In this document: positions 13,917-47,988 of the stretch, in pieces
How positions within the stretch are numbered: position 1 is the first letter of the stretch
Layout: every line of letters begins with the position of its first letter
NCBI GenBank assembly: GCA_001004885.1
Contig: LCRX01000013.1
Span: 1 to 47,988 of the forward strand
Reading direction: 5' to 3'
Length of the DNA: 47,988 bases
DNA from: Candidatus Magasanikbacteria bacterium GW2011_GWA2_56_11
Lineage (GTDB): Bacteria > Patescibacteriota > Patescibacteriia > Magasanikbacterales > UBA922
Notes under the pieces: model-generated
What the model was told of the DNA's origin: nothing
Seen by the model: the letters and a program-made list of their open reading frames with translations, nothing else
The model's database searches: none
Made by a program: the position numbers and the translations under genes

Positions 13917-16595
13917 ATGATTCTTAAAAAAATGGGCCTTCGGCTGAGCGCCGGAATAATGGGGCTTGTAACCGCTCTCCTGCCCTTGCTCCCGGTCTCT
14001 CCGGCCGGAGCGGCGCACGTGGGTTTGCTGTCCACCAGCACGTTTGCAAACGGTACGGCCACGCTCAATATCAGCGCCCCCTCCGGCGCGTATTGCGACG
14101 TAGCCATCGGCAGCGCGGTAGCGGCGCCGGATTACCGGTGGATAGAGGCTAAACCCTGTACCACGATTGTGGCTTCGGGGCTGCCCAATGTCGATCTCTT
14201 GTACGTCCGTATCTTCAACGGCGGACACGGCCATGATTTTAAACTGAAACCGACGGTTGCCGCCCCGACCCCAGCTCCGGCGCCGTCTCCAACCCCGACC
14301 CCGACCCCAGCTCCGGCGCCGTCTCCAACCCCGACCCCGACCCCAGCTCCGGCGCCGTCAGTCAAGCCGACTTACCGGGCGCCCACCATCATCTCGCCGG
14401 CCGCCGGCAGCACTCTGCCCGGGAGCTCGGTTAAGTTTACCTGGACAAACGAGGGCGCGAACTATTACGTTGTGCGCGTGGGCAAATACTGGAACGCGAC
14501 TACATACGGCTCTTACCAGGTTAATGGCACCTCTCTCACTCTCAACAATCTTCCGACTGACGGCAGCACTGTCCATGTACGCATTTTAGCTTATTTTTCC
14601 GGTTCGTTGCGCAGCCGCAGTTACTCATATACGGCGGCCAAAATCGCGGCGCCTACTCCGACCCCTACCCCTACCCCGACACCTACACCAACTCCAATCC
14701 CAACCCCAACGCCGGTGGGCAAATCGGCCTTTTCGTCTGTCTGGGCCAATGAAGGCGGTTACAAAGTGCCGCAGGAATACCTTTTGGGAAGCAATAATCC
14801 GGCAAGCACGGCCAACTCGGTCTGGAACGGTGCCAAGATTTCCGTTTTTGGCGGCAGGAACGAGGTGGTAAACTTCAATCTTATTCTTGAGGCCAAAAGC
14901 CAGCCGGTTGGCCCGGTCTCGGTTAGCTTTGACAAACTTACCGGTCCGAACGGTTACGCGATCAGTTCCAAAGCGGCCGGCGGACCAGGACTCTACAACT
15001 GGGTCGGACGCAATATTGAACTTTTTTACGTACGTTATCTGCCAATCAAAGGACTGAGCGGCTTTATGTCGCTAAACTATGACGAGCGGCATCGTCCGGA
15101 ACGGTTCCGTTCGCCGATCGCGCTCGCCCAGGGAGCCTATGCCGGGCTGTGGTCGGACCGGCTGGATCACGACAAGTCTTATCCGGATATCGCGGTCCCG
15201 TACGAAATGCATGACGGTTTTACCGTGGCCGCGGGTAAAAACCAGAGCATCTGGGCAGACGTGTACATTCCAAAAGGTGCCCCGGCGGGTACTTACCAAG
15301 GCGTCGTAACTGTCAAAGAGGGCGGGACGGCGACTTACCAGCTGCCGGTGGAGTTAATCGTGTACGACTTCACTCTGCCGGATTCTCCGAGCGCCAAAAC
15401 CATGCTTTTTATGGGCGCGAGCGACCTGAACAAACGCTACCTTGGCCAGTCTTGGACCGCGGACGCCGCCCAGGCCGAAACCGCCCGCCAGGTGCGCGAC
15501 CGTCACTTTCAATTGGCCCATCGCCATAAAATATCCCTTATTGATGCCGATCCGGGATCAACCGGAGACGCTCCGAGCGCCGACTGGGTGCCGCGCCTGA
15601 ACGGTTCGCTTTTCACCGCCGCGAGGGGTTATGACGGACCGGGAGCGGGAGTAGGAAACAATGTCTACTCCATAGGCACTTACGGCTCCTGGGGCTGGAA
15701 GGGCGAAGGCCAAGCCGGTATGTGGAAACACACCGATGCCTGGGCCAACTGGTTTGCGGCCAACGCCCCGTCGAGTGAATATTTCCTCTACCTTATAGAC
15801 GAAAGCAGCGACTATCCCCAAATCGAACAGTGGGCGCAGTGGATAAACAATAACCCCGGACCGGGCAAAAAAGTGTTCTCGTTGGCTACCATCGGTCTGC
15901 CCTCGGCCGCGGCCAACACCCCGTCCCTGGATATCCCGGTATCGGGCATGTACGTCGGCGACACCTATGCCTGGCAGAGCGCGGCCAACAAATATCTCAC
16001 CAATCCGGACAAGAGATTCTACATGTACAACGGCGGCCGGCCGGGCCAGGGTTCTTTCATGACGGAAGACGACGGCATTGCCCTGCGCGAAATGTCGTGG
16101 GGGCAGTACAAAAAAGGCATCAGCCGCTGGTTCTACTGGGAATCTACCTACTATAATAATTATCAGGGAGGGGCTGGCGAAACCAATGTCTTTAAACAGG
16201 CCCAAACGTTCGGCAGCAACGGCACCTGGAGCAACATGCTCGGACAGACGGGCTGGAACTACAGCAACGGCGACGGCGTCCTTTTCTACCCGGGTACGGA
16301 TAAGCTGTTTCCGGCCGATTCGTACGGCGTACCCGGACCGTTCGCGAGCTTACGTCTCAAACACTGGCGCCGGGGTGTCCAGGACGTGGATTACCTCACG
16401 CTGGCCGCCAAGGTCAACCCGACTCGCGTTCAGGAAATAGTGAACGCGACCGTGCCCAAAGTGCTGTGGGAGTACGGCGTCGACAACCAGTCTGACCCGA
16501 CTTACAAGAATACGGCCATCAGCTGGTCGAGCAACCCGGATGTCTGGGAAGCGGCCCGCAAGGAACTGGCGCAGATTATAGCCGGCATTAAGTAG
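13917..16595 (+). CDS. Secreted glycoside-hydrolase-like protein (DUF4091/GH123-like C-terminus, Ig/Fn-like domain, Pro/Thr linkers)
   Basis: N-terminal signal peptide; PAPSPTPTP linkers; YFLYLIDESSDYPQ and LRLKHWRRGVQDVDYLTLAAK resemble DUF4091. Confidence 0.65.
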   Translation: MILKKMGLRLSAGIMGLVTALLPLLPVSPAGAAHVGLLSTSTFANGTATLNISAPSGAYCDVAIGSAVAAPDYRWIEAKPCTTIVASGLPNVDLLYVRIFNGGHGHDFKLKPTVAAPTPAPAPSPTPTPTPAPAPSPTPTPTPAPAPSVKPTYRAPTIISPAAGSTLPGSSVKFTWTNEGANYYVVRVGKYWNATTYGSYQVNGTSLTLNNLPTDGSTVHVRILAYFSGSLRSRSYSYTAAKIAAPTPTPTPTPTPTPTPIPTPTPVGKSAFSSVWANEGGYKVPQEYLLGSNNPASTANSVWNGAKISVFGGRNEVVNFNLILEAKSQPVGPVSVSFDKLTGPNGYAISSKAAGGPGLYNWVGRNIELFYVRYLPIKGLSGFMSLNYDERHRPERFRSPIALAQGAYAGLWSDRLDHDKSYPDIAVPYEMHDGFTVAAGKNQSIWADVYIPKGAPAGTYQGVVTVKEGGTATYQLPVELIVYDFTLPDSPSAKTMLFMGASDLNKRYLGQSWTADAAQAETARQVRDRHFQLAHRHKISLIDADPGSTGDAPSADWVPRLNGSLFTAARGYDGPGAGVGNNVYSIGTYGSWGWKGEGQAGMWKHTDAWANWFAANAPSSEYFLYLIDESSDYPQIEQWAQWINNNPGPGKKVFSLATIGLPSAAANTPSLDIPVSGMYVGDTYAWQSAANKYLTNPDKRFYMYNGGRPGQGSFMTEDDGIALREMSWGQYKKGISRWFYWESTYYNNYQGGAGETNVFKQAQTFGSNGTWSNMLGQTGWNYSNGDGVLFYPGTDKLFPADSYGVPGPFASLRLKHWRRGVQDVDYLTLAAKVNPTRVQEIVNATVPKVLWEYGVDNQSDPTYKNTAISWSSNPDVWEAARKELAQIIAGIK
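14270..14358 (+). repeat. 36-bp coding minisatellite encoding a (PAPAPSPTPTPT)-type linker, about 2.5 copies
   Basis: ccagctccggcgccgtctccaaccccgaccccgacc repeated in tandem. Confidence 0.85.
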
Positions 16596-16643
16596 CGCAT
16601 AATTAACCGCTTTTGGCCTCTGCCGCTCGGGCAGGACAAGAAT

Positions 16644-16670
16644 AAGCCCCTCCTTCGGGGCTTTTCTTTT
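16644..16670 (+). terminator. Intrinsic terminator after the glycosidase-like gene
   Basis: aagcccctccttcggggcttttctttt. Confidence 0.8.
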
Positions 16671-16793
16671 ACTGCTTGAACTTATTGTCGCCGGCCGGGG
16701 CGGCGGCAATAAGTTCAAGTTGTCCACAGATGTCTAACAACAGATGCGCACGGTTGTGCTATACTACGTCCATTAAAATTAAGTCTTCATTCT

Positions 16794-18194
16794 ATGCGCG
16801 GTAAATCATATCTTGTGTTCGCGGCGGCCGCGGGCTTGCTCCTGGCAGCGCCAGGCGTATCATGGGCGGCCACGAGCGTCGGCACCAATGTTTCTGTCGA
16901 CGGAACATTGACGGTCAACGGTAACTCCACGGTGGGCAATGCCACCTCGTCCGATGTCTTGTTCGTGAATTCGCGCATCGCCGGGTCTCTCATCCCGACT
17001 TTCAACGATTCCATCAGTCTGGGCGAGTTCGCGAGGGCCTATACCAACGTCTTCAGCTCCGGCACCATTTACGGGGCCAATCTGGACCTTGACGGCAACA
17101 CGACGCTCGGCAACGTAACCTCGTCCGATGTCGTCTACATCAATTCCCGTCTGGGCGGTTCCCTCATCCCCCGAGCGAACAACTCTTTGTCTTTGGGAGA
17201 GGGCGGCTTGGCTTTTGGGAATGTGTTTTCTTCGGGTACGCTTTATGTCAGCACCACCCAAGCCGGAGATTTCGGCGGCCCCAGGGCGCCGGTGTTTTCT
17301 TTCTCGAACGATCCCGACACTGGTCTGTACAACCGCGACGGCAGCCGGCTGGGGGTAACCATTGACGGCGTAGCCAAATTACAAGTGTCAAACACTGATT
17401 TTTCTCCTTTTCGCAACAATCGTCTGGATTTGGGGCAGTTCAGCTCCAGCACCGAGGGTCCAGGAGCGTGGAAAAATGTTTTTGCTTCCGGCACGATGTA
17501 CACGGATGAGTTGATATCCGGTGTTACCTCTACGATTACAATGACATCATCCTCCATTATCGGTTCCAGCGGTACGGCCCTCACCTTTACTATCCGGGGT
17601 ACCGCATCAGGCGCCGGCAGCAATATTATTATTCAGGCCGGTGAGGCCGGAGTTTCCGGCGCCGGCGGCAGCATCAATCTTGTGCCCGGCAGCGGCGTTG
17701 GCGGTTCGCCCGGCTTGGTTAACATCTATACATCCGGCGGCGGCAAGACTCTTTCCGGGCGATTAGGTTCGGCGGTGCAGGATGACTTCACGATTTATGG
17801 CGGCACTACCGTTAATAAAATCAGTTTCGGCCAATACAGCGGCTCGGAAGAGACCTCTTTCCGGGTAAAGATAATTGACAGCCCGGCCAACTTCCCCGAA
17901 GTAACCGGCGCTCTCACCGGCAGCAACCCCAATATCGCGGCTACCGGTACCGACGACAATATCAACCTCGATTTGGTGGCCAAAGGTTCCGGCGTCATAG
18001 CCGCCTCGAGCGGCCTCTATGTCCCGGACGGCAAGTATTTGCAGGCGGCGGACAACAACGCCGGCGCGCCGGCGGCGGGAGACTGCGATGAGGCTGGCGA
18101 GATCGGCCGGATCAGCATTGACACCACGGGCAATGCTCTCTATGTCTGCAACGGTGCCACTCGCGGCTGGGATACTATAGCTCTAACCAACTAG
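16794..18194 (+). CDS. Secreted surface/fibre-like protein with imperfect tandem repeats
   Basis: Signal peptide MRGKSYLVFAAAAGLLLAAPGVSWA; repeats NxTxGNxTSSDVxxxNSRxxGSLIPxxNxSxSLGE...NVFSSGTxY. Confidence 0.7.
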   Translation: MRGKSYLVFAAAAGLLLAAPGVSWAATSVGTNVSVDGTLTVNGNSTVGNATSSDVLFVNSRIAGSLIPTFNDSISLGEFARAYTNVFSSGTIYGANLDLDGNTTLGNVTSSDVVYINSRLGGSLIPRANNSLSLGEGGLAFGNVFSSGTLYVSTTQAGDFGGPRAPVFSFSNDPDTGLYNRDGSRLGVTIDGVAKLQVSNTDFSPFRNNRLDLGQFSSSTEGPGAWKNVFASGTMYTDELISGVTSTITMTSSSIIGSSGTALTFTIRGTASGAGSNIIIQAGEAGVSGAGGSINLVPGSGVGGSPGLVNIYTSGGGKTLSGRLGSAVQDDFTIYGGTTVNKISFGQYSGSEETSFRVKIIDSPANFPEVTGALTGSNPNIAATGTDDNINLDLVAKGSGVIAASSGLYVPDGKYLQAADNNAGAPAAGDCDEAGEIGRISIDTTGNALYVCNGATRGWDTIALTN

Positions 18195-18220
18195 AAAACG
18201 GTCGGCAAATCACTTGCTTG

Positions 18221-18250
18221 AAAACAGCCCTGGAATCCCAGGGCTGTTTT
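18221..18250 (+). terminator. Intrinsic terminator
   Basis: aaaacagccctgg-aatc-ccagggctgtttt, 13-bp stem, T-rich tail. Confidence 0.88.
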
Positions 18251-18260
18251 GTTTAGCCTG

Positions 18261-18308
18261 GGACCTACTCCCAAAAATGACCCTGGAATTATTTTGGGAG
18301 TAGGTTCC
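18261..18308. repeat. Inverted repeat built from a dispersed 16-mer
   Basis: ggacctactcccaaaa / ttttgggagtaggttcc; gaacctactcccaaaa recurs at 26498-26513. Confidence 0.7.
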
Positions 18309-18417
18309 AATTGTTTTGTGCCGGCCGGAGCGATTAAATGTCAAGCTGTTGGGTTTCAATAAGTTATCAACAAACATTGACGCTCCTTTTGGCCGTAAGC
18401 TACGCTACCTTCGAGTC

Positions 18418-18574
18418 AGAATTCACAGCGAGTTTCCCCCTTTTCGGCGAAGCATGGACTGGTTTTCATGGCGCCAAAACTCGCTCTTAATAGGCTCAAA
18501 CATTGGTGCCGTGAAAATCAGTCTATGTTTCGGCTCAACTTAGGATAGAATTGTTAGTAATTCACTGTCAGTTC
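18418..18574 (+). repeat. Dispersed intergenic structured element, copy B
   Basis: Arms 18450-18477/18503-18530 and 18427-18435/18477-18485; closely similar to 10341-10498. Confidence 0.75.
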
Positions 18575-18649
18575 TCATTCGTACTTAGCGTGGCCATACG
18601 GTCGTGTTTGGCCGATTAATGATACTGCTCGATGCCTAACCCTAGCCAT

Positions 18650-21649
18650 ATGAAAAGTACAGGAAAATTATTCTCCGCCTTAACTTTATCATTAATTTTG
18701 GCCCTTTCGCTCCTGCCCGCGCTGCCTGTTTTGGCAGCCGCCTTTGTTACACTCGATGTTTTTAGCGGGCTGCCCGGCACGGTACAGGTAAGCGGGGGAG
18801 GGTGGTCTCCCGGGGAAACCGTTTCCGTCTATCTCGGTTCGGTTTCGGGAGCGCCGGCAGCCACGGCGCCGGCCGGTAGCGGGGGCTCTTTCGGCCCGCT
18901 GGCGGTGGCTGTTCCGGCCAACACGCCTCCTGGGCCGTTGTCGGTTATTGCCCTGGGATCGGTAAGCGGCGAACCGCAGTTGAATAGTTTTTATGTTCAG
19001 CCATATCTGCCGGGCATAACGGTCGCCGGAGGCGGCAACACGCCCGGTAGCTCCCTGTTAATCCACGGCCAGGGGTATGCCGCGAACGAGACGGTCCGTT
19101 TTACCCTGAATGGAGCGGACATGGGGCAGACAACGGCAGACGCGGGCGGTGCTTTCTCCGGGACGGCAACGGTGCCTTTTGTCCCTGCCGGCAACTATCT
19201 GGTGCGGGCAGAGGGCCAGTCTTCGCGCGCTGAATCGTCGGCTTACTTTTATGTCGGCGGTTTCTACCCGGGCATCACACCCTCGGCATACTACATTTTG
19301 CCGACCCAGGCGCTCAATTTTACCGGATCAGGGTTTGCTCCTGGCGAAACCGTTCAGATTACGGTGGACGGCAGCCAGACACCGCTTGGCGCTATTACAG
19401 CCGACAGCAGCGGCAGCTTCAGCTCTGCGGGCGCAGTTACGATTCCGCTTAGCCTGGCCGGTATCCGCACCTTCCGTCTGTTGGGACTTACGAGTCAGGC
19501 GCAGGCGCAAGTAGAGGTAACGGTGGGCGGATTCAACCCGCAGGTAACGCCGTCCGCCTATTTTAGTCTGCCGGGCAGTACGGTCGCGTTTTCCGGCACC
19601 GGCTTTGCCCCCGGTGAGACGGTAAAAGTGTCCGATATTCAAAGCCAGGCCGAAATGGCCCAATTTGCGGTTGATGCCGAAGGCAGTTTTACCGCTCTCG
19701 GCAGTTTCGCCATTCCCTTTGATTGGGCGCCAGGCGGCCGCACGCTGAGGCTGAGCGGACAGGTCGGCGGGGGAGAGACTGACGTAACCTTTGTAGTCGG
19801 GCAATTCAATTCATTGGTCTCGCCTTCGGCGTACCTGGTTGTGGCCGGACAAGACCTTACATTCTCCGGGGATGGTTTCGCGGCCGGAGAAACCGTGCGG
19901 GTAACGGAGAGCGGACACCCTGATGTGCTCGCGAACATAACGGCTGACGGGAACGGTAGTTTTGCCGCGGCCGGTGCTTTCACCGTGCCCTTCGCCTGGG
20001 CCGACACCAGCCGCAGCTTCAAATTGACCGGGCAAACCAGCCGTACCGAGGCTGCCGTTACGATTACGGTCGCGCAGTTTGTGCCCCTGGCGACTCCTTC
20101 GGATTATTATCTCCTGCCCGGCAGCCAAATCTCGTTTTTCGGGTCCGGTTTTGCCGCTCTCGAAAACATCACGGTTACGCGCGCCGGAGAAGCTGCGCCT
20201 TTGGCCGAGATTACGGCCGACGCCGGCGGCGGCTTTCAGAACGCAGGGTCGTTCGCGGTCCCGTTTGCCTGGAGCGGCCAGCAGACGCTTGTCCTCGCCG
20301 GCCAGATGAGCGGCGCCACGCTCGAGATGCTGATTACAGCTTCGGCGTTCAACCCACAGATAAGCCCTTCTTCATTCTATGTTAAGCCTGGAGAAAGCGT
20401 AACGCTGTCCGGCACCGGCTTTGCGGCCAACGAGCCGGTGAATGTCAGCCTGGCGGGCGGAAAGACAGTGGCGGTAACGGCGGACGCGGCCGGATCTTTT
20501 GCCGCTGCCGGCCCTTTTCCGGCCGGCCAAGGGGGGACGACGCTCCATCTGGCGGCAGCCGGCGTAAATAGCGCGGCCAAAGCCGAAGTCGATGTTCCGG
20601 TAGGCGGCTTGTACCCGGAGATAACTCCGGACCAATGGTATGTCCCGTCCGGGAGAAACATCCTGTTCTCCGGTTACGGTTTCGCGCCGGAAGAAGACGT
20701 TATTTTGACCGGCGAAGGCAATACTGTCATGGCCACTATACTGACGGATCTGGCCGGCGCCTTCACTAACCTGCTCGTCAAAACCGGTTTTGGCGGCAAC
20801 CGGCAGTCTGTCTACGCCTTTAGAGGCACCATGAGCGGAGCCGCGGCCGAGGCGGCCATAACCATGGCCGGCTTGCAGCCGTACGTATCGCTAAATACCT
20901 ATTACGCTGCTCCGGGCACGGCCGTACTTCTTTCCGGCACCGGCTTTGCGGCCGACGAGCCGGTTACGATTACTTTGGGTTCGGCGACGGTCTACGCCGC
21001 CGCGGATGAGGCGGGCAATGTTACCGCCGCGCCGATCACGATTCCATTCGATGCTACCGGGACGGCCGTGTCGGTTACCGCGCTCGGAGATAACAGCGGG
21101 GCGAGCGGGTCAACGTTTTTGACCCTGGCTCCGTTTACTCCACAGGTCATGCCGAGTACCTGGTATACGGCACCCGGCTCTAATTTGACCTTTACCGGCA
21201 GCGGATTCGCCCCGGGCGAGGCGGTAGCCGTCGCGATCGGTAACGCCGCCGTGGCCGCGGTAAACGCCGACGAGTCCGGCGGTTTCATCACGGAGCCGAT
21301 CAAGATCCCCTTCGGTTCGGCCGCGGCCGATTTCTCGTTTACCGGTAACATTAGTCATGGGGTCGCCACGGTTCCCGTTTCTTTGGCCGAGTTGCACCCC
21401 GGGATCGCTCTTTCCACGTATTACGACCCGGGCGGCACGCCGCTTACTATCCATGGCTTTGGTTTTGTGAGCGTAGAGCCGGTTATCATCGCTTTTGGCG
21501 GGCAAACTCTGGGCACCGCCCTCTCCGATGACGCGGGTAATTTACGCGGGTGCGCCGGGCGCGGCGGTCAATTTTATCGGCTTCGGCTACCTGCCGGGGG
21601 AAACCGTCGCGATTACCACCGACCGGACAGGCGCGGGCGTAGTGCATAG
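18650..21649 (+). CDS. Secreted Ig-like tandem-repeat surface protein (eleven units before a frameshift)
   Basis: Signal peptide; repeated xPSxYYxxPGSxxxFSGxGFAPGEtV units; unit 12 and natural C-terminus continue in another frame to 21794. Confidence 0.75.
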   Translation: MKSTGKLFSALTLSLILALSLLPALPVLAAAFVTLDVFSGLPGTVQVSGGGWSPGETVSVYLGSVSGAPAATAPAGSGGSFGPLAVAVPANTPPGPLSVIALGSVSGEPQLNSFYVQPYLPGITVAGGGNTPGSSLLIHGQGYAANETVRFTLNGADMGQTTADAGGAFSGTATVPFVPAGNYLVRAEGQSSRAESSAYFYVGGFYPGITPSAYYILPTQALNFTGSGFAPGETVQITVDGSQTPLGAITADSSGSFSSAGAVTIPLSLAGIRTFRLLGLTSQAQAQVEVTVGGFNPQVTPSAYFSLPGSTVAFSGTGFAPGETVKVSDIQSQAEMAQFAVDAEGSFTALGSFAIPFDWAPGGRTLRLSGQVGGGETDVTFVVGQFNSLVSPSAYLVVAGQDLTFSGDGFAAGETVRVTESGHPDVLANITADGNGSFAAAGAFTVPFAWADTSRSFKLTGQTSRTEAAVTITVAQFVPLATPSDYYLLPGSQISFFGSGFAALENITVTRAGEAAPLAEITADAGGGFQNAGSFAVPFAWSGQQTLVLAGQMSGATLEMLITASAFNPQISPSSFYVKPGESVTLSGTGFAANEPVNVSLAGGKTVAVTADAAGSFAAAGPFPAGQGGTTLHLAAAGVNSAAKAEVDVPVGGLYPEITPDQWYVPSGRNILFSGYGFAPEEDVILTGEGNTVMATILTDLAGAFTNLLVKTGFGGNRQSVYAFRGTMSGAAAEAAITMAGLQPYVSLNTYYAAPGTAVLLSGTGFAADEPVTITLGSATVYAAADEAGNVTAAPITIPFDATGTAVSVTALGDNSGASGSTFLTLAPFTPQVMPSTWYTAPGSNLTFTGSGFAPGEAVAVAIGNAAVAAVNADESGGFITEPIKIPFGSAAADFSFTGNISHGVATVPVSLAELHPGIALSTYYDPGGTPLTIHGFGFVSVEPVIIAFGGQTLGTALSDDAGNLRGCAGRGGQFYRLRLPAGGNRRDYHRPDRRGRSA

Positions 21650-21823
21650 CTTTGGCGTTGACGCTATGGGCAACTTCAACGATTCCGGATTCACCCTACC
21701 GGCGGACTTTGCCGAGGGTCTGGTAACCATAACTATTAGCGGTGAGCGCAGCTTTGCCCCGGCCAGTATTCAGTACTATGTTACCGGTGGTTAGGGGCCT
21801 TGGCCACGGTTGATCGCGATTAC

Positions 21824-21855
21824 GGAAAACCTGCCGCTTGGAGCGGCAGGTTTTG
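21824..21855 (+). terminator. Intrinsic terminator
   Basis: aaaacctgccgct-tgg-agcggcaggtttt. Confidence 0.85.
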
Positions 21856-21887
21856 GCTAAATTGAGACAAAAAAATGTTTAATATCC

Positions 21888-21916
21888 TTGACAAACAGCC
21901 CTTTTGTTGGTATAGT
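21888..21916 (+). promoter_or_regulatory. Sigma70-type promoter of the Cys-rich lipoprotein cassette
   Basis: TTGACA (21888-21893), 17-bp spacer, TATAGT (21911-21916). Confidence 0.7.
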
Positions 21917-22031
21917 TGGCCATCCTCTGCGGTGAATACTCGTGCGAGGCCAAGAGCAGGTAAACGTTGCCTTTTCTTTGCCCCGCATCTCGGTTGGTCC
22001 CGAGCTCTGTCACCAAAAGGAGGCTATTATC

Positions 22032-23029
22032 GTGCGTTCGCTGATCGCTATTATTTTTTTTTCTCGCTCGGCTGCTCCGACACGGAGAAGGCCTGCCCGT
22101 CCGGCCAAGAAGCCGATCCGGGTTCGCCCGATGTCGGGATCGGCGCCGGCCCGGACGCCGGCCTGGCCGAAGACTCCGGTCCGGAGCTCGACTATGGCAC
22201 TCCGGTTCTGGGGGCGGACATCGCCACCGTTCCCGACTACGACGGGCGAGCTGACCAGGAGGGTTCGGCTCCGTCTTACCACTGTTCGTACCCGCTCAAT
22301 ACCTGTCCGTGCGTCGGCATCGTCTGCCTGTACTGCCACCCGGACGGTACTTGTCTCACCGAGCCCGAGTGCGTCAGCGACGAGGGCTGCGATGACGGCA
22401 ACGCTTGTGTCGCGGACCAGTGCGTGTCCGGCCAGTGCGCGCACCAGGCGATCGACGGGTGCGTCCCGTGCACCTCCCTCGAGGAGTGCGGGTACAATGG
22501 CGGTACTAACGGCATTCCGCACTACGGATACACGTGCGACACCGGCCTGGGCAGGTGCGTGCCGCCCGAGGACGAATGCCAGACGGACGCAGACTGCGAG
22601 GACGGCGACCCGTGCACCCCCAACGTGTGCACGATCGCCTCCCAGGCCGGCGGCGCCAAAGCGTGCGGGGTAAGCATCCCGTACAACTATTGCACCTGCC
22701 TGAGCGACATCGACTGCTACTGGACCGAGAAGCAGACCTGTTCGGAGGGGAAGGTCTGCGTCGACGGCGTCCTCTCGGAGAAAGTCGGCGACGGCAACAT
22801 CTGCGCGTCCGTCGCCGATTGCATCGGTTCCGTCTGGGGTCCGTACTGCGTCCCCAACGAGCCGGACCCGATCGGCAATCTCTGCCAGGAGTGCGTCCAA
22901 AACGATGCCGACGGCAATGGCGTCGACGACGGCTGCCCGGCCGAGCGCCCGCGCTGCTCTTGGGGCTTGTGGGGCTGGCCCGACGAGGGCGTGCCCTACC
23001 GGAGCATCTACATGTGTCAGGAGGAGTAG
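22032..23029 (+). CDS. Cys-rich secreted lipoprotein, frame broken at a T9 tract (about 22062-22072)
   Basis: RBS aaaaggagg, GTG start; VRSLIAIIFF in frame 0, then FSLGCSDTEKACPSG...CDDGNACVADQCVSGQC in a different frame ending at 23029. Confidence 0.65.
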
Positions 23030-23104
23030 TCCTAACCGCAGGCGAATGGCCCCAGGGGCCAAAGCCTCGTTCTTTCCCGCCGACTTTTTCTGTCGGCGAA
23101 CTTC

Positions 23105-23134
23105 AAAAACACACCAGGCGTCTGGTGTGTTTTT
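23105..23134 (+). terminator. Intrinsic terminator after the Cys-rich cassette
   Basis: aaaaacacaccag-gcgt-ctggtgtgttttt. Confidence 0.9.
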
Positions 23135-23305
23135 GTCTGCGGAGTGTCGGGTTTACTTATGTACCGGCCTAAAGATGAGAGAGAAAAAATCCGAATAGTC
23201 GGGAGTTTTTAATTTGCCCAAAAAGCCGGCGAAATTGATGACGCCGGTCTTGTTACTCGCCCCCGTTGATCCCAGATACTGCTATCGATTTTTGTCGCCG
23301 ATTTT

Positions 23306-36760: not shown

Positions 36761-37153
36761 TGGTGGAGATGCCGGGAATCGAACCCGGGTCTAAATGGGG
36801 TACCGTTACCCTCTACATGCGTAGCCGTTTCGGTGCGGTCTTTGAAACATGGGGAAGCGGCAAGAGTGTTTCAAACAAGCCTGAGGCCGGTTCGGCCTGC
36901 TGATTCAGGCAATCAGGCAGGCCTACGCTCGATAGGTTGACACCGCCGGTCTTGTATCGAGTATCCAAGGGGCGATGGCTCAAGCGATTAAGCGAGAGCA
37001 GGGTAGGCTACCGGCGCGAACGCGCGAGCGAGCGCAGCCTTAGCCCGTGAAAATACGTTGGCACGTATCGATTGCCGAGCGGTTAACGAGTGCCCGACAC
37101 CCCGGCACGCAGATAAGAGATACCTGATCCATCTATCGAAACCTGTCATCCCC
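36761..37153 (-). ncRNA. ssrA: tmRNA (ssrA), tag ANVFSRAKAALARAFAPVAYPALA
   Basis: GGGGATGACAGGTTTCGAT 5' end; GACCCGGGTTCGATTCCCGGCATCTCCACCA 3' end; tag ORF 36988-37062 in between; smpB adjacent. Confidence 0.95.
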
Positions 37154-41285: not shown

Positions 41286-44200
41286 ATGGCTAACCCCCAG
41301 GATGAGACCGCTCTCCGGTCGGAACTTCAGGGACTTTTGGAACAGGCCAAAGAGACGGAACAGGTCGAAGATCTGGAAAGGCTAGTGGCCGGGCTGAAAG
41401 AAAATATTGAAATTAGGCTAAAAAAACGAGCGATTTTTTTGCGCCGGGAGATGGCCGAAATCGAAGCCCTCCTCGGCAATATTCCGGTCTCCTCGGCAGA
41501 CGCGGAAGAATTTCGGCGTCGAAAGGACGAACTGGCAGGGAAGGTGGAAAATGCTTTGCGCGAGCTTGATCGGCTCACGGCTGAATTCGCGCCTCTCGAG
41601 GCCATTCAGCGCCAGGGGCCGGGGATGACTCGGTTGGATACCGGAGAGCAGCCCGTTATTCTGCCGGACGGATCGGAGTACCGTGGCATCCTGCGTAATG
41701 GCATTCCTCATGCCGAGGGCTGGATTCGCCAGCCGGATGGGTATACTTTTGAGGGTCTGTTTAACATGGGCCACAAAGTCAGGGGTAAAAGTTGCAATCA
41801 GGCGGGACAGCTGGTGTACGAGGGAGAATTCGGCCCGGGTTCGGGTGTGTTGGCTGCCTTTGACGTGTATCAAGGATTTGGCAGTCTGTACGAACCCGAT
41901 AAAGGTATTATGTACGAGGGTCAGTTTAAGAATGACGAATTTGACGGCTACGGCAGATTTTATTATGAAGACCGCTCTTATATAACCGGTTATTTTAAAG
42001 ATGGCAAACTTCATGGATTGGCCACTAGATATTCGGCCGACGGCCAAGTGATCCGGCGCTCCCTGTGGGAGAAAAGTAAAGAAAAAACAAATTTTGTCGG
42101 CGATTATCCAATTCCGGATACGCCGGCTATGCTGGAGGTTTTACGCTTGATTGAACGCCCAAAAGTTAAAAAAGTATCAAGGCGAAACGATAGAACTCGG
42201 CAAATGGAAGAGGTGGAAGAACTGGTTGGCGGAGGCGGCGACCCGGCCGAGAAAATGGCCCGTTTGGCTATTATCATTGACCAGCAGCGCCAGGCCGCGC
42301 GCCTAAGCCGGCGGCTTCATGCCCTGCTCGACAGTGCCGCGACTCCCGAAGAAAAAATCGCTGAATTGGAAAGGACAGTCAGCCTCGAGAGCGAACGTGG
42401 GCGTTTTTCTCCGCAGATGGACGAACTTCATGCCCTGCTCGACAGTGCCGCGACTCCCGAAGAAAAAATCGCTGAATTGGAAAAAATACTTAAACGCGAA
42501 CGTCAGGTCGCGCACCTAAGCCGGCAGTTTGAGGAGTTGCTCAACAAAAATATTCCGTCCAAAGACAAAATAAATGAATTGGCGACGCGTCTTGACCGCG
42601 AGCCAGAGTCAGGCCGACTGGGCCGGTGGATACGAGAGAGCCTTGACGACGACATATCCGCCGAGGATAAAATAGTTGAAATTACAAAAATCGTTAAACG
42701 CGAGCGTCGGGGAGAACAAATGACGATTGAGCAGGAACAGGTCATTGAGGGCACGGCTACGGTTTTCCAGATACTGAATAACCAACGCTTAAGTCCGGCC
42801 GATAAGATTGCCAAACTGAAAATTATTCAGGCCGGGTTGCCGCCGGCATCGGGCCGGCTGGTCGAGGAGTTGGCGGAGGTTGTCGATGCCAGCCTGGAGC
42901 AGCTGGAAGAAGTCAAGGGACAAGCCGCTGGTTTTGGCAAATTCGAGCAAGTAGCCGAAAGCCTGGAAGCCAGGTCCGTGAACGATCCCTGGCGCGAGCG
43001 GGAAACGAACATTTATTACTGGTTGGATAGTCAAATCGTCGAAATTCTTCCGGGAAAAACCAGGGATAAACAGAAGCGTTTAAGACTGGCGAGAAACGGT
43101 GACGTGGTAACCGAAAAGGAATTCTTGGCTGATATTTTGCCGACCCTTTCTTTGCCGGAAAAGCTGGTCAAGCCAGACGAGCGCACCGGTTACCAGGTGT
43201 CCCATGATGATATCCGCGATCGTTTTCACCAGTGGCGCGCTGCCCGGGCCGCTCGCCTGCTACCGAGAGGAGCCCAGCAAGTACTTAAGGATATTGTCGA
43301 GGGGGATCGTGGACGGAAAAAAGAAGAGTTCAAATTTACAAAAGGCATTGGGATGAGTGCCGCCACCCTGTTTAAAGGCATTGAGAGGAGTATCGCGAGC
43401 CTGCTGGCCCGCGACAATGCCGGGATGTTAGTTATCAAAGAACATTTTCGTCCCCGTCAAGCTAATAAAATGAATCCGAGGGAGCTTGATGAAGAATACC
43501 GGAGGTTTTTGGATCAGGAAGTCTCTTACGAGCGTTTTAGTCCCAGCGCACTTTTGGCCGCCTTAGACAAAGAAATGCTGGCCAGCCTCGCTGCCCGTAA
43601 AATTACCGCCGGGCAGGACAAGAAAAAGAGACAGCGTCCGCTCACCCCGGACGATCTCTATAATTATCTATATCTTTGGGTATCGCACCACGATTTGCCG
43701 CAAGTTAAACGGCAGGCGATTAGGCGCCAGGGTGCGGTCATGGAAACAGAGTACGAAATTGAAGATGACCCCCACCGTCAGGGCCGCAAACGGTGGAAGA
43801 GCCCACCAGCCGCTGAACAGCCCTATGAAAAGGGTTTTGCACCGGCCCAGGAGCGGGTTGAAAGTTCGGAGCTTCAGACTGGTGACACACTTCATGCCGT
43901 GCCCGTTATTTTTTCCGATAGCGGCAGTCCAACTGGCATGACCACGGCCGAGGTGACAATTACCGAAGTGGCAGAAGGCGAGAGCGCCGGGGAATGGGAG
44001 TATTATTTTCGACCGGTTAAGGGTACTGACGAGGCGTGGTATGAACCCTGGAAACAGCATGCCAGCCGGCCAATAGCGTATTTTACTTCCCGCGAACTGG
44101 CCGAAGCGCGAGGCCTGGTAGAGCGACCGCCCGAAGATATAGAGCGGGAAAAACGCGAACGGATCGCTGACTGGGTCGATTTTATTTACCGGGAAGGCTG

Positions 44201-47200
44201 GATTCAGCGCACCACTACCGGTTTTGTGGTTTTGGTTGAGCGTTCGGGCCGGCACCGGAGGGACGAGCCGGATCTTGTACCCCGGGCTGTAACTTCGGTC
44301 GATCAGGCAGTAGAGGCAATATTGGCCCGGGCTAGCGAGGTGAATCGGCAAAAGTTCGACGGACGCGAGGAATATGCGGATCCGGACGAGGGGCTCGGCC
44401 GGATAGTTCACGAGCGCGAAGCCCGGCCGCAGCTTTCTCAACTTCAAGAATTTGCCCGTACTGGGATTACAGCCGAGTATCTGCGCCAGGAATTACCCCA
44501 GCTGATATCGGGGCACCATATTGACCGAGTCGGCGAGGTCGAACGGGGTTCGCCGGTAACATTGACCGTTGTCGGGACCGGGAGCCGCATCCGCGGACAT
44601 CTGGCTAGCGACGGCCTGGTGCGCGGACAGGAATTTACCGTCATTTTGGCCGAGCAGATTCCTCATAGTGACCAGAGTCAGATTCGCGAACCTGGAGAGC
44701 TCTATACGGCTCAGCTGGTAGATATCGTCCCTGGTGCCAGCCCGGATATCAGGCCTGAACTACGTATCGCCCCCGTGGCTACTCTGGGCGCGAAGGTCGA
44801 TGACGCTGACCGCGAAATCACGACAGCCACGCTCGACACAGCCGATTTTGTCCATGAAATTACACCGGAAAAAAGGGGTTTGGCGATGGACATCCTAGAG
44901 GGCAACGTGTTGCCGAGACTTTTGGTTGATGAAGAACAAATCTATAATGCTGCCGGAGAGCCAATAACAGGTAGAAGCAAAAAGCGTTTGGTTCTCCTCA
45001 GAGAAGATGAAGGTTATCTGCCGGTCGACGCAGATACGATGCGGGTGGAGCTTATGAAGAACATCGGCGCCGTAACTGCGGCCGGGCTGACCGTGGAGCA
45101 GATGCTTTACGTGGCCAGACAGTGGATAGACGGTCTTAATAAGAAACGTTTGCAAACAGTGGAACAATTTCAATTGGAACAAGAACGCCGTCCGCGCACC
45201 ATCGGCGACCTGGGCTGGTTCGAAACCAGCTCGGTGGAGTTTGTTTTTCGGGCTGGCGAACGGGTAAACCTAAAAATCAACGGCCTGCCCGACCCTCGGC
45301 TGGAAATTATCCGCGAGCGGGAGGCTTTTCGGATTGCGTATGACCGCGAGGCCGATCTTAATCTTACCTACTTGCCGGCGGAGAAACGCGTGGAGTGCTC
45401 GGGCCACGCCAATCTGCCGGACGAAGTGGAGCAGACCGAGACTCTGCCCGACGGCAGAATACGGTTGGTCTACCGCAATGGCAGCGCATACGAGGGTGAG
45501 GCGGACGCGGATGGCCAGCCGCACGGCCGGGGCGAGTTCGGCCGCTACGACGGCCGGCGCGCGGTCGGATCGTTCGTCCATGGCGCGGCCGAAGGAGCTT
45601 TGGAATTGCACCAGGGCGACGTATTGCTCGCCCGGTCTGCTTATACCCACGGCCGGCGCGAAGGACAGGCGGGCGTGCGGCGTCCGGACGGAAAGTGGCA
45701 GGTCTTTGCTTACGCGGGTGGTGCTGTCGCGGACGGCTATACGGCCATTTACTCCACCGAGGCGGACACGCAGCCGGGGAGCTACGAGATCTGGGAAGGC
45801 GACCGGCCGGTAGCAGAGGAAACTATGCCCGCTGAAAACGAGATCAAGGGGTTGGGCGCGTACGACGCGGGCGCTAAAAAGTTTGCCTTCGCCGACGGCA
45901 GCGAACTTCTGCTGCCGCCCATCGAGTTTAAGCTTCCCCCCGACAACAAGCTGCGAAAGCTTGAACCGGAATTCTTTCCGCGCTCTGCCGGGCGGCAGGA
46001 TTATCTGGCGTTTGCCTATCCGGGAAAAGAGGCGTCTGCCGCCAGTATTATTAAACTGCGCGGCCTGGACATCCGGCGCCTCACGGTCGAGACGAATGTG
46101 AATTCATCCACCGCCTCGGAGAGCGTAAATTCCGTCGCTGCCGTGAGAGAAAAATTCAATAAATTTTTGGCGGCGGCCGGCGAAGCGGTGAAACCGGCCG
46201 ATTTGGAAATTAACTTTCACGGTATTGCGGGCAAATATGTGGGGCAGACGACTACCGACCCGGACGGCAACCAGATCCCCGACGGCCAGGGCAGACTTGT
46301 GCTCAGCGACAAGTACCGCCGGGAAATAGTCGGCCGGTTTGAGCAGGGCCGGCCGGCGGAGTGCCGGGTGACCAAAAACGAGGCCGGCCGCAAAACCACT
46401 TACCAGGGAGAGCTGAACGAAAAAGGCGAGGCGCATGGCCGTGGCACTCTCTGGCTTAATGACCGTCTGCTGACCGAAATTAAAGGTATTTTTGTCGCCG
46501 ACCGGCTGCCGCAGCGCGCCGAGGTGCGCAAGCGCCAGGGCAGGTTGGAGTTTTTTTATGAGGGGGCGATAGGCGAGCAGGGTGAGCTGCAGTCCGCGCG
46601 GGCCCGCCTAAGGGCCGGCGAGAGCGTATACGAGGGATTGTTCGACAAGACGCGCTTCATCGAAGGGGAGCATTGGGTTGGCGCGACTGCCGGGAGTGAA
46701 GAGTTGCATTACAAAGGAACTTTCCAGGGCGAGGTGGTTACTGCGGACGAGCTCCGTTCGCCGTCTTACCTGGTGGGCATCCGCCGGGTTAATAACGAGC
46801 GCACACCCTGGGCCTATGCCACCTGGCAGGCCAACGGTTTGCCGGATCCGGACAGCGAAATAGAATATTTTGAGGCCTTGGGCCAGGCCGATGCCCGCAT
46901 GGGTTCGGGGGCCCCGCGGCAGAAAGCAAAACCGCCGGAGGCGGCTCCGGCAGCGGCCGAGGGTGGACTCGAGACCACGGCCGCGCCGGTTGAAGTAGGG
47001 TTTAGCGGTTCTCAGGCATTCTATACCGGGCAATATCGGCGGCGGACGGACGGCGCGAAGATATTTTACGGGCAAGGCGAGATGAGGGTACCAGATTTCA
47101 AGATAGTTTTTACCGGCGAATTCCGCGACCAGCGTCCGGTGCGCGGCCGGCTTGTTCAGGGCGAAGGCGCGGCCGCCACTACTTACGAGGGGCCGGTCAG

Positions 47201-47988
47201 TCCGTTTTTTCTACCCGACGGCGGGGCCGGAGTTATCACCATGCCGGACGGCCGGAAATGGAGCGGCACGTTTGCTGACGATCATCTTGTGGGCGTGGGA
47301 CAGTTCGTGAAAAACGACGAGCTGCAGTATGAAGGCCATTTCGCCCAAAGGGGAATTTTTGGCTACAGTGGGGGGGTAGTTGAACTGCCCCAACCCGAGG
47401 GGGAGGGGATTTTAGTCCGCCCCGGCGGCTTATGCGAAAAGGGGCGGTGGCGCATTGAAGATGGCAGGTTCGGAGCCGAATCCGCCACCGCGTTTTTTTC
47501 TTCTCTCGAAGACGCGCGGCATGACCGGAATCCGCTCTCGAGCGTGGACGTGCACGAGAAAAAGGGCGGAGTAATGATCAGAGTTTTGGGCCACCGTTTG
47601 CGCTACGAGGGCAATACCGTGGAAATAGGCGGGCGGCGAGTGCCGGGATGGCGCGGGCAAGTAGATTTTGAGGGATACATTCCCGGCTCCCGGTTTGAGG
47701 GCCTGTTTGCGGACGGAAAGCCGGTCAGCGGATCGATTATATCCAATAATCAAGGATCAGTTTACACCGGCCCGGTGAACGAAAATTTTTTGCCCCATGG
47801 CCAGGCAGGGGTTTATCGCTGCGGCGACAACGAATATGAGGGCGACTTCATCAACGGTAAGCTCACGGCCGGGAGGCGTCTAAGCGGCGAGTCGGTGCCG
47901 GAGTACGAGGGTGAATTCGCCGGCGCGCTCCTGGGCAGCGACGGCCGGTGGCAAGAGCCTAAGCCGCATGGCCGGGGCATGTTTTTTG
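41286..47988 (+). CDS. Giant MORN-repeat protein, at least 2234 aa, open to window end
   Basis: Frame from ATG 41286 read without a stop to 47988; YEGQFKNDEFDGYGRFYYED, YEGEADADGQPHGRGEFGRYDG, YQGELNEKGEAHGRGTLWLND, YEGDFINGKL. Confidence 0.8.
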   Translation, partial: MANPQDETALRSELQGLLEQAKETEQVEDLERLVAGLKENIEIRLKKRAIFLRREMAEIEALLGNIPVSSADAEEFRRRKDELAGKVENALRELDRLTAEFAPLEAIQRQGPGMTRLDTGEQPVILPDGSEYRGILRNGIPHAEGWIRQPDGYTFEGLFNMGHKVRGKSCNQAGQLVYEGEFGPGSGVLAAFDVYQGFGSLYEPDKGIMYEGQFKNDEFDGYGRFYYEDRSYITGYFKDGKLHGLATRYSADGQVIRRSLWEKSKEKTNFVGDYPIPDTPAMLEVLRLIERPKVKKVSRRNDRTRQMEEVEELVGGGGDPAEKMARLAIIIDQQRQAARLSRRLHALLDSAATPEEKIAELERTVSLESERGRFSPQMDELHALLDSAATPEEKIAELEKILKRERQVAHLSRQFEELLNKNIPSKDKINELATRLDREPESGRLGRWIRESLDDDISAEDKIVEITKIVKRERRGEQMTIEQEQVIEGTATVFQILNNQRLSPADKIAKLKIIQAGLPPASGRLVEELAEVVDASLEQLEEVKGQAAGFGKFEQVAESLEARSVNDPWRERETNIYYWLDSQIVEILPGKTRDKQKRLRLARNGDVVTEKEFLADILPTLSLPEKLVKPDERTGYQVSHDDIRDRFHQWRAARAARLLPRGAQQVLKDIVEGDRGRKKEEFKFTKGIGMSAATLFKGIERSIASLLARDNAGMLVIKEHFRPRQANKMNPRELDEEYRRFLDQEVSYERFSPSALLAALDKEMLASLAARKITAGQDKKKRQRPLTPDDLYNYLYLWVSHHDLPQVKRQAIRRQGAVMETEYEIEDDPHRQGRKRWKSPPAAEQPYEKGFAPAQERVESSELQTGDTLHAVPVIFSDSGSPTGMTTAEVTITEVAEGESAGEWEYYFRPVKGTDEAWYEPWKQHASRPIAYFTSRELAEARGLVERPPEDIEREKRERIADWVDFIYREGWIQRTTTGFVVLVERSGRHRRDEPDLVPRAVTSVDQAVEAILARASEVNRQKFDGREEYADPDEGLGRIVHEREARPQLSQLQEFARTGITAEYLRQELPQLISGHHIDRVGEVERGSPVTLTVVGTGSRIRGHLASDGLVRGQEFTVILAEQIPHSDQSQIREPGELYTAQLVDIVPGASPDIRPELRIAPVATLGAKVDDADREITTATLDTADFVHEITPEKRGLAMDILEGNVLPRLLVDEEQIYNAAGEPITGRSKKRLVLLREDEGYLPVDADTMRVELMKNIGAVTAAGLTVEQMLYVARQWIDGLNKKRLQTVEQFQLEQERRPRTIGDLGWFETSSVEFVFRAGERVNLKINGLPDPRLEIIREREAFRIAYDREADLNLTYLPAEKRVECSGHANLPDEVEQTETLPDGRIRLVYRNGSAYEGEADADGQPHGRGEFGRYDGRRAVGSFVHGAAEGALELHQGDVLLARSAYTHGRREGQAGVRRPDGKWQVFAYAGGAVADGYTAIYSTEADTQPGSYEIWEGDRPVAEETMPAENEIKGLGAYDAGAKKFAFADGSELLLPPIEFKLPPDNKLRKLEPEFFPRSAGRQDYLAFAYPGKEASAASIIKLRGLDIRRLTVETNVNSSTASESVNSVAAVREKFNKFLAAAGEAVKPADLEINFHGIAGKYVGQTTTDPDGNQIPDGQGRLVLSDKYRREIVGRFEQGRPAECRVTKNEAGRKTTYQGELNEKGEAHGRGTLWLNDRLLTEIKGIFVADRLPQRAEVRKRQGRLEFFYEGAIGEQGELQSARARLRAGESVYEGLFDKTRFIEGEHWVGATAGSEELHYKGTFQGEVVTADELRSPSYLVGIRRVNNERTPWAYATWQANGLPDPDSEIEYFEALGQADARMGSGAPRQKAKPPEAAPAAAEGGLETTAAPVEVGFSGSQAFYTGQYRRRTDGAKIFYGQGEMRVPDFKIVFTGEFRDQRPVRGRLVQGEGAAATTYEGPVSPFFLPDGGAGVITMPDGRKWSGTFADDHLVGVGQFVKNDELQYEGHFAQRGIFGYSGGVVELPQPEGEGILVRPGGLCEKGRWRIEDGRFGAESATAFFSSLEDARHDRNPLSSVDVHEKKGGVMIRVLGHRLRYEGNTVEIGGRRVPGWRGQVDFEGYIPGSRFEGLFADGKPVSGSIISNNQGSVYTGPVNENFLPHGQAGVYRCGDNEYEGDFINGKLTAGRRLSGESVPEYEGEFAGALLGSDGRWQEPKPHGRGMFF
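42315..42483 (+). repeat. Tandem 111-bp period duplication inside the MORN gene
   Basis: 58-bp exact copies cttcatgccctgctcgacag...gctgaattggaaa at 42315-42372 and 42426-42483. Confidence 0.9.

Follow-up and report, generated by a model that had tools for sequence, protein, structure and literature searches.

In Mycoplasma hominis, the vaa gene is ON when a run at its 5' end counts eight A (A8) and OFF at A7 or A9, with switching at 1e-3 to 1e-4 (PMC524362). A surface lipoprotein with a homopolymer tract is credited to Theiss and Wise (1997) in PMC3711429. The gene described here resembles these two in having a 5' homopolymer, a predicted surface-protein product, a frame that a single base breaks and a small host genome. 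It differs from vaa and from the second gene, the M. fermentans lipoprotein, in that its run is of T rather than A, lies within signal-peptide codons and belongs to another phylum and protein family; moreover, switching has been demonstrated in the mycoplasmas, whereas our gene is known from sequence alone. Shigella mxiE and Thermus dnaX undergo transcriptional slippage at nine-base A/T runs, the same length as ours (PMC1088944; PMC6260861), and in mxiE one extra U joins an upstream and a downstream ORF, as it would here. Those cases were demonstrated experimentally in unrelated proteins, whereas relatives of our gene lack the tract, which is read from DNA only. Buchnera and Blochmannia poly(A) genes, as described in PMC5009743, share with ours a reduced genome and the prospect that slippage may rescue an out-of-frame gene, but these are AT-rich endosymbionts, whereas the window (the whole stretch of 47,988 nucleotides analyzed here) has a GC content of 57% and the gene is the single frame-breaking case that we found.

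The host, one of the Magasanikbacteria group of Patescibacteria, is represented by a MAG of 1.25 Mb, a 99% complete draft assembled into 23 contigs. The features of the locus, in window coordinates, are as follows.

21888-21916, + strand: sigma-70-type promoter, TTGACA-17-TATAGT, with TG ahead of the second hexamer; 11/12 consensus matches.
21923-22023, + strand: 5' leader of about 110 nt; predicted fold of -43.3 kcal/mol, z -2.1, equaled by 8/200 shuffles.
22015-22023, + strand: Shine-Dalgarno (SD) sequence AAAAGGAGG, 8 nt 5' of GTG 22032.
22032-22062, + strand: GTG start and first 10 codons (VRSLIAIIFF), coding for the n-region and the start of the hydrophobic region; from sequence and translation.
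22054-22062, + strand: T9 run, exactly nine bases as read from the sequence, the junction of both frames.
22055-22061, + strand: slippery heptamer T_TTT_TTT, in frame inside T9; from the sequence.
22061-23029, + strand: body, with the signal end FSLG, Cys 22073-22075, the Cys-rich secreted part and the stop codon 23027-23029; from translation, composition and homology.

T9 begins 22 nt 3' of GTG 22032, and the frames on its two sides differ. The frame opened by the GTG reads VRSLIAIIFFSRSAAPTRR..., about 212 codons of Arg/Pro/Ala-rich nonsense with coding signs absent. The body frame, FFFSLGCSDTEKACPSG..., lies at -1 relative to it and extends over 324 aa up to TAG 23027-23029. One additional T, the loss of two T or a -1 shift joins the frames into a product of 332 aa (VRSLIAIIFFFSLGC...). 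T9 is an early-coding simple-sequence tract at which a change of one unit breaks the frame, and its occurrence is unremarkable in frequency (1.76 expected per window, 1 found). A previous interpretation of this DNA, hereafter the sequence-only reading, had placed a T9 between a GTG-started signal and a Cys-rich body and had argued that one T more or two fewer restores the frame; the position and the frame mismatch are both confirmed, and the restoration is borne out by translation of both frames. It is established, at the level of the assembly, that a well-formed lipoprotein gene is split by a slippery run.

The start signals are unambiguous and stand in the pre-tract frame. The SD and GTG 22032 leading into VRSLIAIIFF were already part of the sequence-only reading and hold; to these we add the promoter, about 115 nt farther 5' and the sole promoter-like site within 21500-23300 (0.4 expected). 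The 384-aa ORF of that reading survives as to its body, which is intact in the -1 frame, but not as to its start: ATG 21875 is spurious and the ORF's N-terminus an artefact, because this codon lies upstream of the promoter. Two further starts were discarded, GTG 21932, the only other in-frame upstream candidate, having neither an SD nor a signal peptide, and any start 3' of T9 being rejected because the Cys-rich protein would then be left signal-less.

On folding, a CCUCU at the 5' end of the leader may pair with the SD. A DNA similarity search for a second copy of the leader found none. The host genome also contains an intact paralogue (L002, G000:C11) with a long structured 5' leader, seen at L002:900-1042 (z -4.2 versus -2.1 in the window); the two leaders are hardly alike in sequence, yet each has a first CCUC/CCUU stretch able to pair with its SD. 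The folding models make an SD-occluding control element in both paralogues possible.

The joined N-terminus, VR-SLIAIIFFFSLG-C, exists only once the frames are joined and comprises a basic n-region, a hydrophobic region and a lipobox-like SLGC; the joined protein consists of a 14-residue signal, Cys15, an acidic Asp/Gly/Pro-rich linker and the Cys-rich body. The host genome encodes Lgt (E 1.3e-44) and, at a contig end adjoining a DksA/TraR-like ORF, a partial LspA whose N-terminus scores 25.2 bits over positions 4-47, above the cut-off, and the gene neighboring the paralogue starts with a plain lipoprotein signal (MIKTIFLAFTVSFVLAGC). The lipoprotein pathway therefore appears to be present, and every element sought for a bacterial lipoprotein (n-region, hydrophobic region, lipobox Cys, and Lgt and LspA in the host) was found. 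That the joined product is a lipoprotein, presumably lipidated, is well supported; the signal and acylated Cys that the sequence-only reading had proposed gain from the promoter, SD and start, the SLGC, the linker, Lgt, the partial LspA and the Cys-rich family.

From Cys 22073-22075 the body counts 318 aa, with 36 Cys codons in all, and its codon-position GC (0.61/0.53/0.85) is of coding type across the full length. Searches against Pfam, NCBIfam and PDB gave weak Cys-pattern matches and no known family beyond them, and an AlphaFold model has a mean pLDDT of 36, too low for use. Similarity searches identified the paralogue (43% identity to the body over 126 aa, E 2e-21) and, in two further genomes of the host's family, relatives (L026, which is identical to L032 where they overlap, and L065), with the body cysteines conserved; none was found in plasmids, phages or viral contigs. 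Among 381 sampled genomes of the class, the family occurs in one, the host. Judged by these matches, the body is a member of a rare Cys-rich secreted family, with one paralogue and two relatives. The signal peptides of the paralogue and of the two relatives are of type I (VKTSIVIALATSLLVAAPALAGG, IKHIAQFIALLIVLAFTTASAHADE, MLLKGFLSAITLMAAMFVLFATPASA), and in 3/3 of these homologues a T run at the corresponding place is absent. The tract is therefore not conserved, and among the copies seen a lipobox and a tract occur in the window copy alone.

C-ending codons make up 84% (92/110) of two-fold and Ile choices in the body, where genes of the window reach 56% (Fisher P 6e-9); the share is 92% in the paralogue and 85% in the L026 gene, which stands beside ribosomal genes with a GC3 of 0.33-0.35. 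The T-rich tract codons clash with this preference: an I-I-F-F stretch that is T-ending throughout has p ~7e-4 under body codon usage and p ~0.05 under window-wide usage. The argument is only suggestive, since AT-rich gene starts are common.

The surroundings of the relatives have features of their own. At L026:900-1072, in Magasanikbacteria, an open type I signal peptide follows a good GGAGG with no in-frame ATG, GTG or TTG before the signal, the best-placed codon being ATA at 913. The homologues in L026 and L065 each adjoin a small gene whose N-terminal half is hydrophobic, and common to both is an inverted-repeat-like intergenic stretch (CACGT[CG]GGGATCAGTC-like) near a terminator-like hairpin; these surroundings are perhaps a shared, mobile, GC3-rich cassette. 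Within the window, the lipoprotein gene is preceded on its 5' side by three consecutive large type I signal-peptide genes (13917-21649; 892, 466 and 1005 aa, with a TIG domain in the third), which form a secreted-protein cluster. Farther along are a tmRNA at 36761-37153, for which ARAGORN predicts a tag peptide of unusual length (ARQSIRANVFSRAKAALARAFAPVAYPALA), and, at 41286-47988, an ORF that spans at least 2234 codons, runs off the window and is rich in MORN-like YEGEF..G..HG repeats.

Run statistics and repair genes bear on whether T9 slips. Search counts of A/T runs in the genome fall from 1008 at a minimum length of 7 bases to 240 at 8, 22 at 9 and 1 at 10. The step ratio from 8 to 9 is 0.092 versus 0.238 from 7 to 8 (binomial P 4e-9): the latter predicts about 57 runs of at least 9, and the 22 seen are about 2.6-fold scarcer, as expected if 9-mers slip. 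T9 is thus a nine-base A/T run in a run-avoiding genome. Searches with the MutS_V and DNA_mis_repair profiles (MutS/MutL) detected none in the host and were positive in 11/14 control genomes. Where MutS/MutL are missing, higher indel rates in homopolymers are to be expected. A comparative survey of slippage on runs of 9 A/T uses scarcity of this kind as a signature of genomes with slippery 9A/9T, one by which transcription and replication slippage are indistinguishable (PMC1088944), and the scarcity here could reflect DNA-level instability only. E. coli RNA polymerase prefers poly(T) for slippage and makes insertions about three times as often as deletions (PMC6260861), insertion being the direction needed to join the frames at T9. 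Slippage, as put forward in the sequence-only reading, is plausible and is strengthened by the MutS/MutL non-detection and the 9-mer scarcity, but the homologues without a tract count against it. Conservation of both the run and the shifted frame, by which programmed transcriptional slippage is recognized (PMC1088944), was not found in L002, L026 or L065, and for this reason T9 cannot be filed under that heading.

We give about an even chance to a hypermutable tract sampled in an out-of-frame state, slippage in replication or transcription making expression reversible or leaky. In this account a genuine gene, coding for a secreted Cys-rich lipoprotein, would have a slippery T9 in its signal-peptide codons, of which the assembly displays an out-of-frame length. 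At T9, translation from GTG 22032 would yield a basic nonsense protein, and the full-length prolipoprotein of 332 aa, lipidated and cleaved at Cys15, would arise only after the frames are joined. Slipped-strand replication could alter the length of the DNA tract, reversibly, which is phase variation; RNA polymerase could add a U at the run, and such transcriptional slippage would give a low constitutive level. The two routes could coexist. Lipidation, slippage and a benefit from switching are all what we infer.

The alternative with most in its favor is a consensus or assembly error, the true tract being in frame within an ordinary constitutive lipoprotein gene. The source is a draft MAG in 23 contigs, one-base mistakes are likeliest at a run of 9, and the body is otherwise perfect, with its composition well kept, as in an undamaged gene. 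We inspected the surroundings of all 22 A/T runs of at least 9 bases in the genome: 16 others lie inside ORFs and 5 outside or in doubtful ORFs. The frame is kept at 16/16 of the other in-ORF runs, T9 being the sole breaker among 17; 12 of these 16 ORFs contain Pfam domains, and the CorA and RF-1 domain matches span the run. Since these 16 runs are in frame and the window's ORF of at least 2234 codons shows no break, a general homopolymer weakness of the assembly is unsupported and unlikely. The homopolymer error that the sequence-only reading had allowed for is weakened as a general fault and still live as a single local mistake, an explanation that we regard as somewhat unlikely.

It is also conceivable, and in our judgment distinctly unlikely, that a one-base slip recently killed the gene and that nothing restores its frame. 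Slips should be frequent without MutS/MutL, the family is accessory and rare (1/381 class genomes), and the intact paralogue could make the T9 copy dispensable. However, the body is undamaged, a second lesion being absent over about 320 codons with codon bias intact, so any loss of the gene would be very recent, and the promoter and SD are near consensus. If the tract is an error or the copy dead, the value of the locus is limited to a corrected start annotation. Programmed -1 ribosomal frameshifting on T_TTT_TTT, joining the frames on unedited mRNA, is highly improbable: the heptamer is in frame at 22055-22061 and U_UUU_UUU is listed among motifs that exceed 0.10% frameshifting in E. coli in the absence of stimulators (PMC4066793), but folding downstream (z -1.17) does not surpass what composition predicts, the SD-like sequence lies about 30 nt upstream, the heptamer is kept in none of the homologues and the shifted product would make up only a small fraction.

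Slippage at a hypermutable T9 remains our preferred explanation. The narrower proposal, that a Patescibacteria cell without detected MutS/MutL has here a surface lipoprotein that is truly a contingency (phase-variable) one, is tentative and we consider it doubtful. Among the 22 nine-base runs no further out-of-frame tract was found, though a species with contingency loci might show a set. If real, the locus works like phase-variable loci, with which it could be filed given length variants. The kind of system is already known; the host lineage would be new, and a search of the open literature returned a single paper containing both 'Patescibacteria' and 'phase variation', on archaeal methylation. 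Confirmed mixed tract lengths would mean that a Patescibacteria lineage has a surface lipoprotein switched by a homopolymer. In that event, reads would offer a simple test of phenotypic switching in uncultured episymbionts whose mismatch repair is undetectable. If the phase-variable proposal is true, slippage at homopolymers would diversify the surface of host-attached, minimal-genome Patescibacteria, as it does in mycoplasmas.
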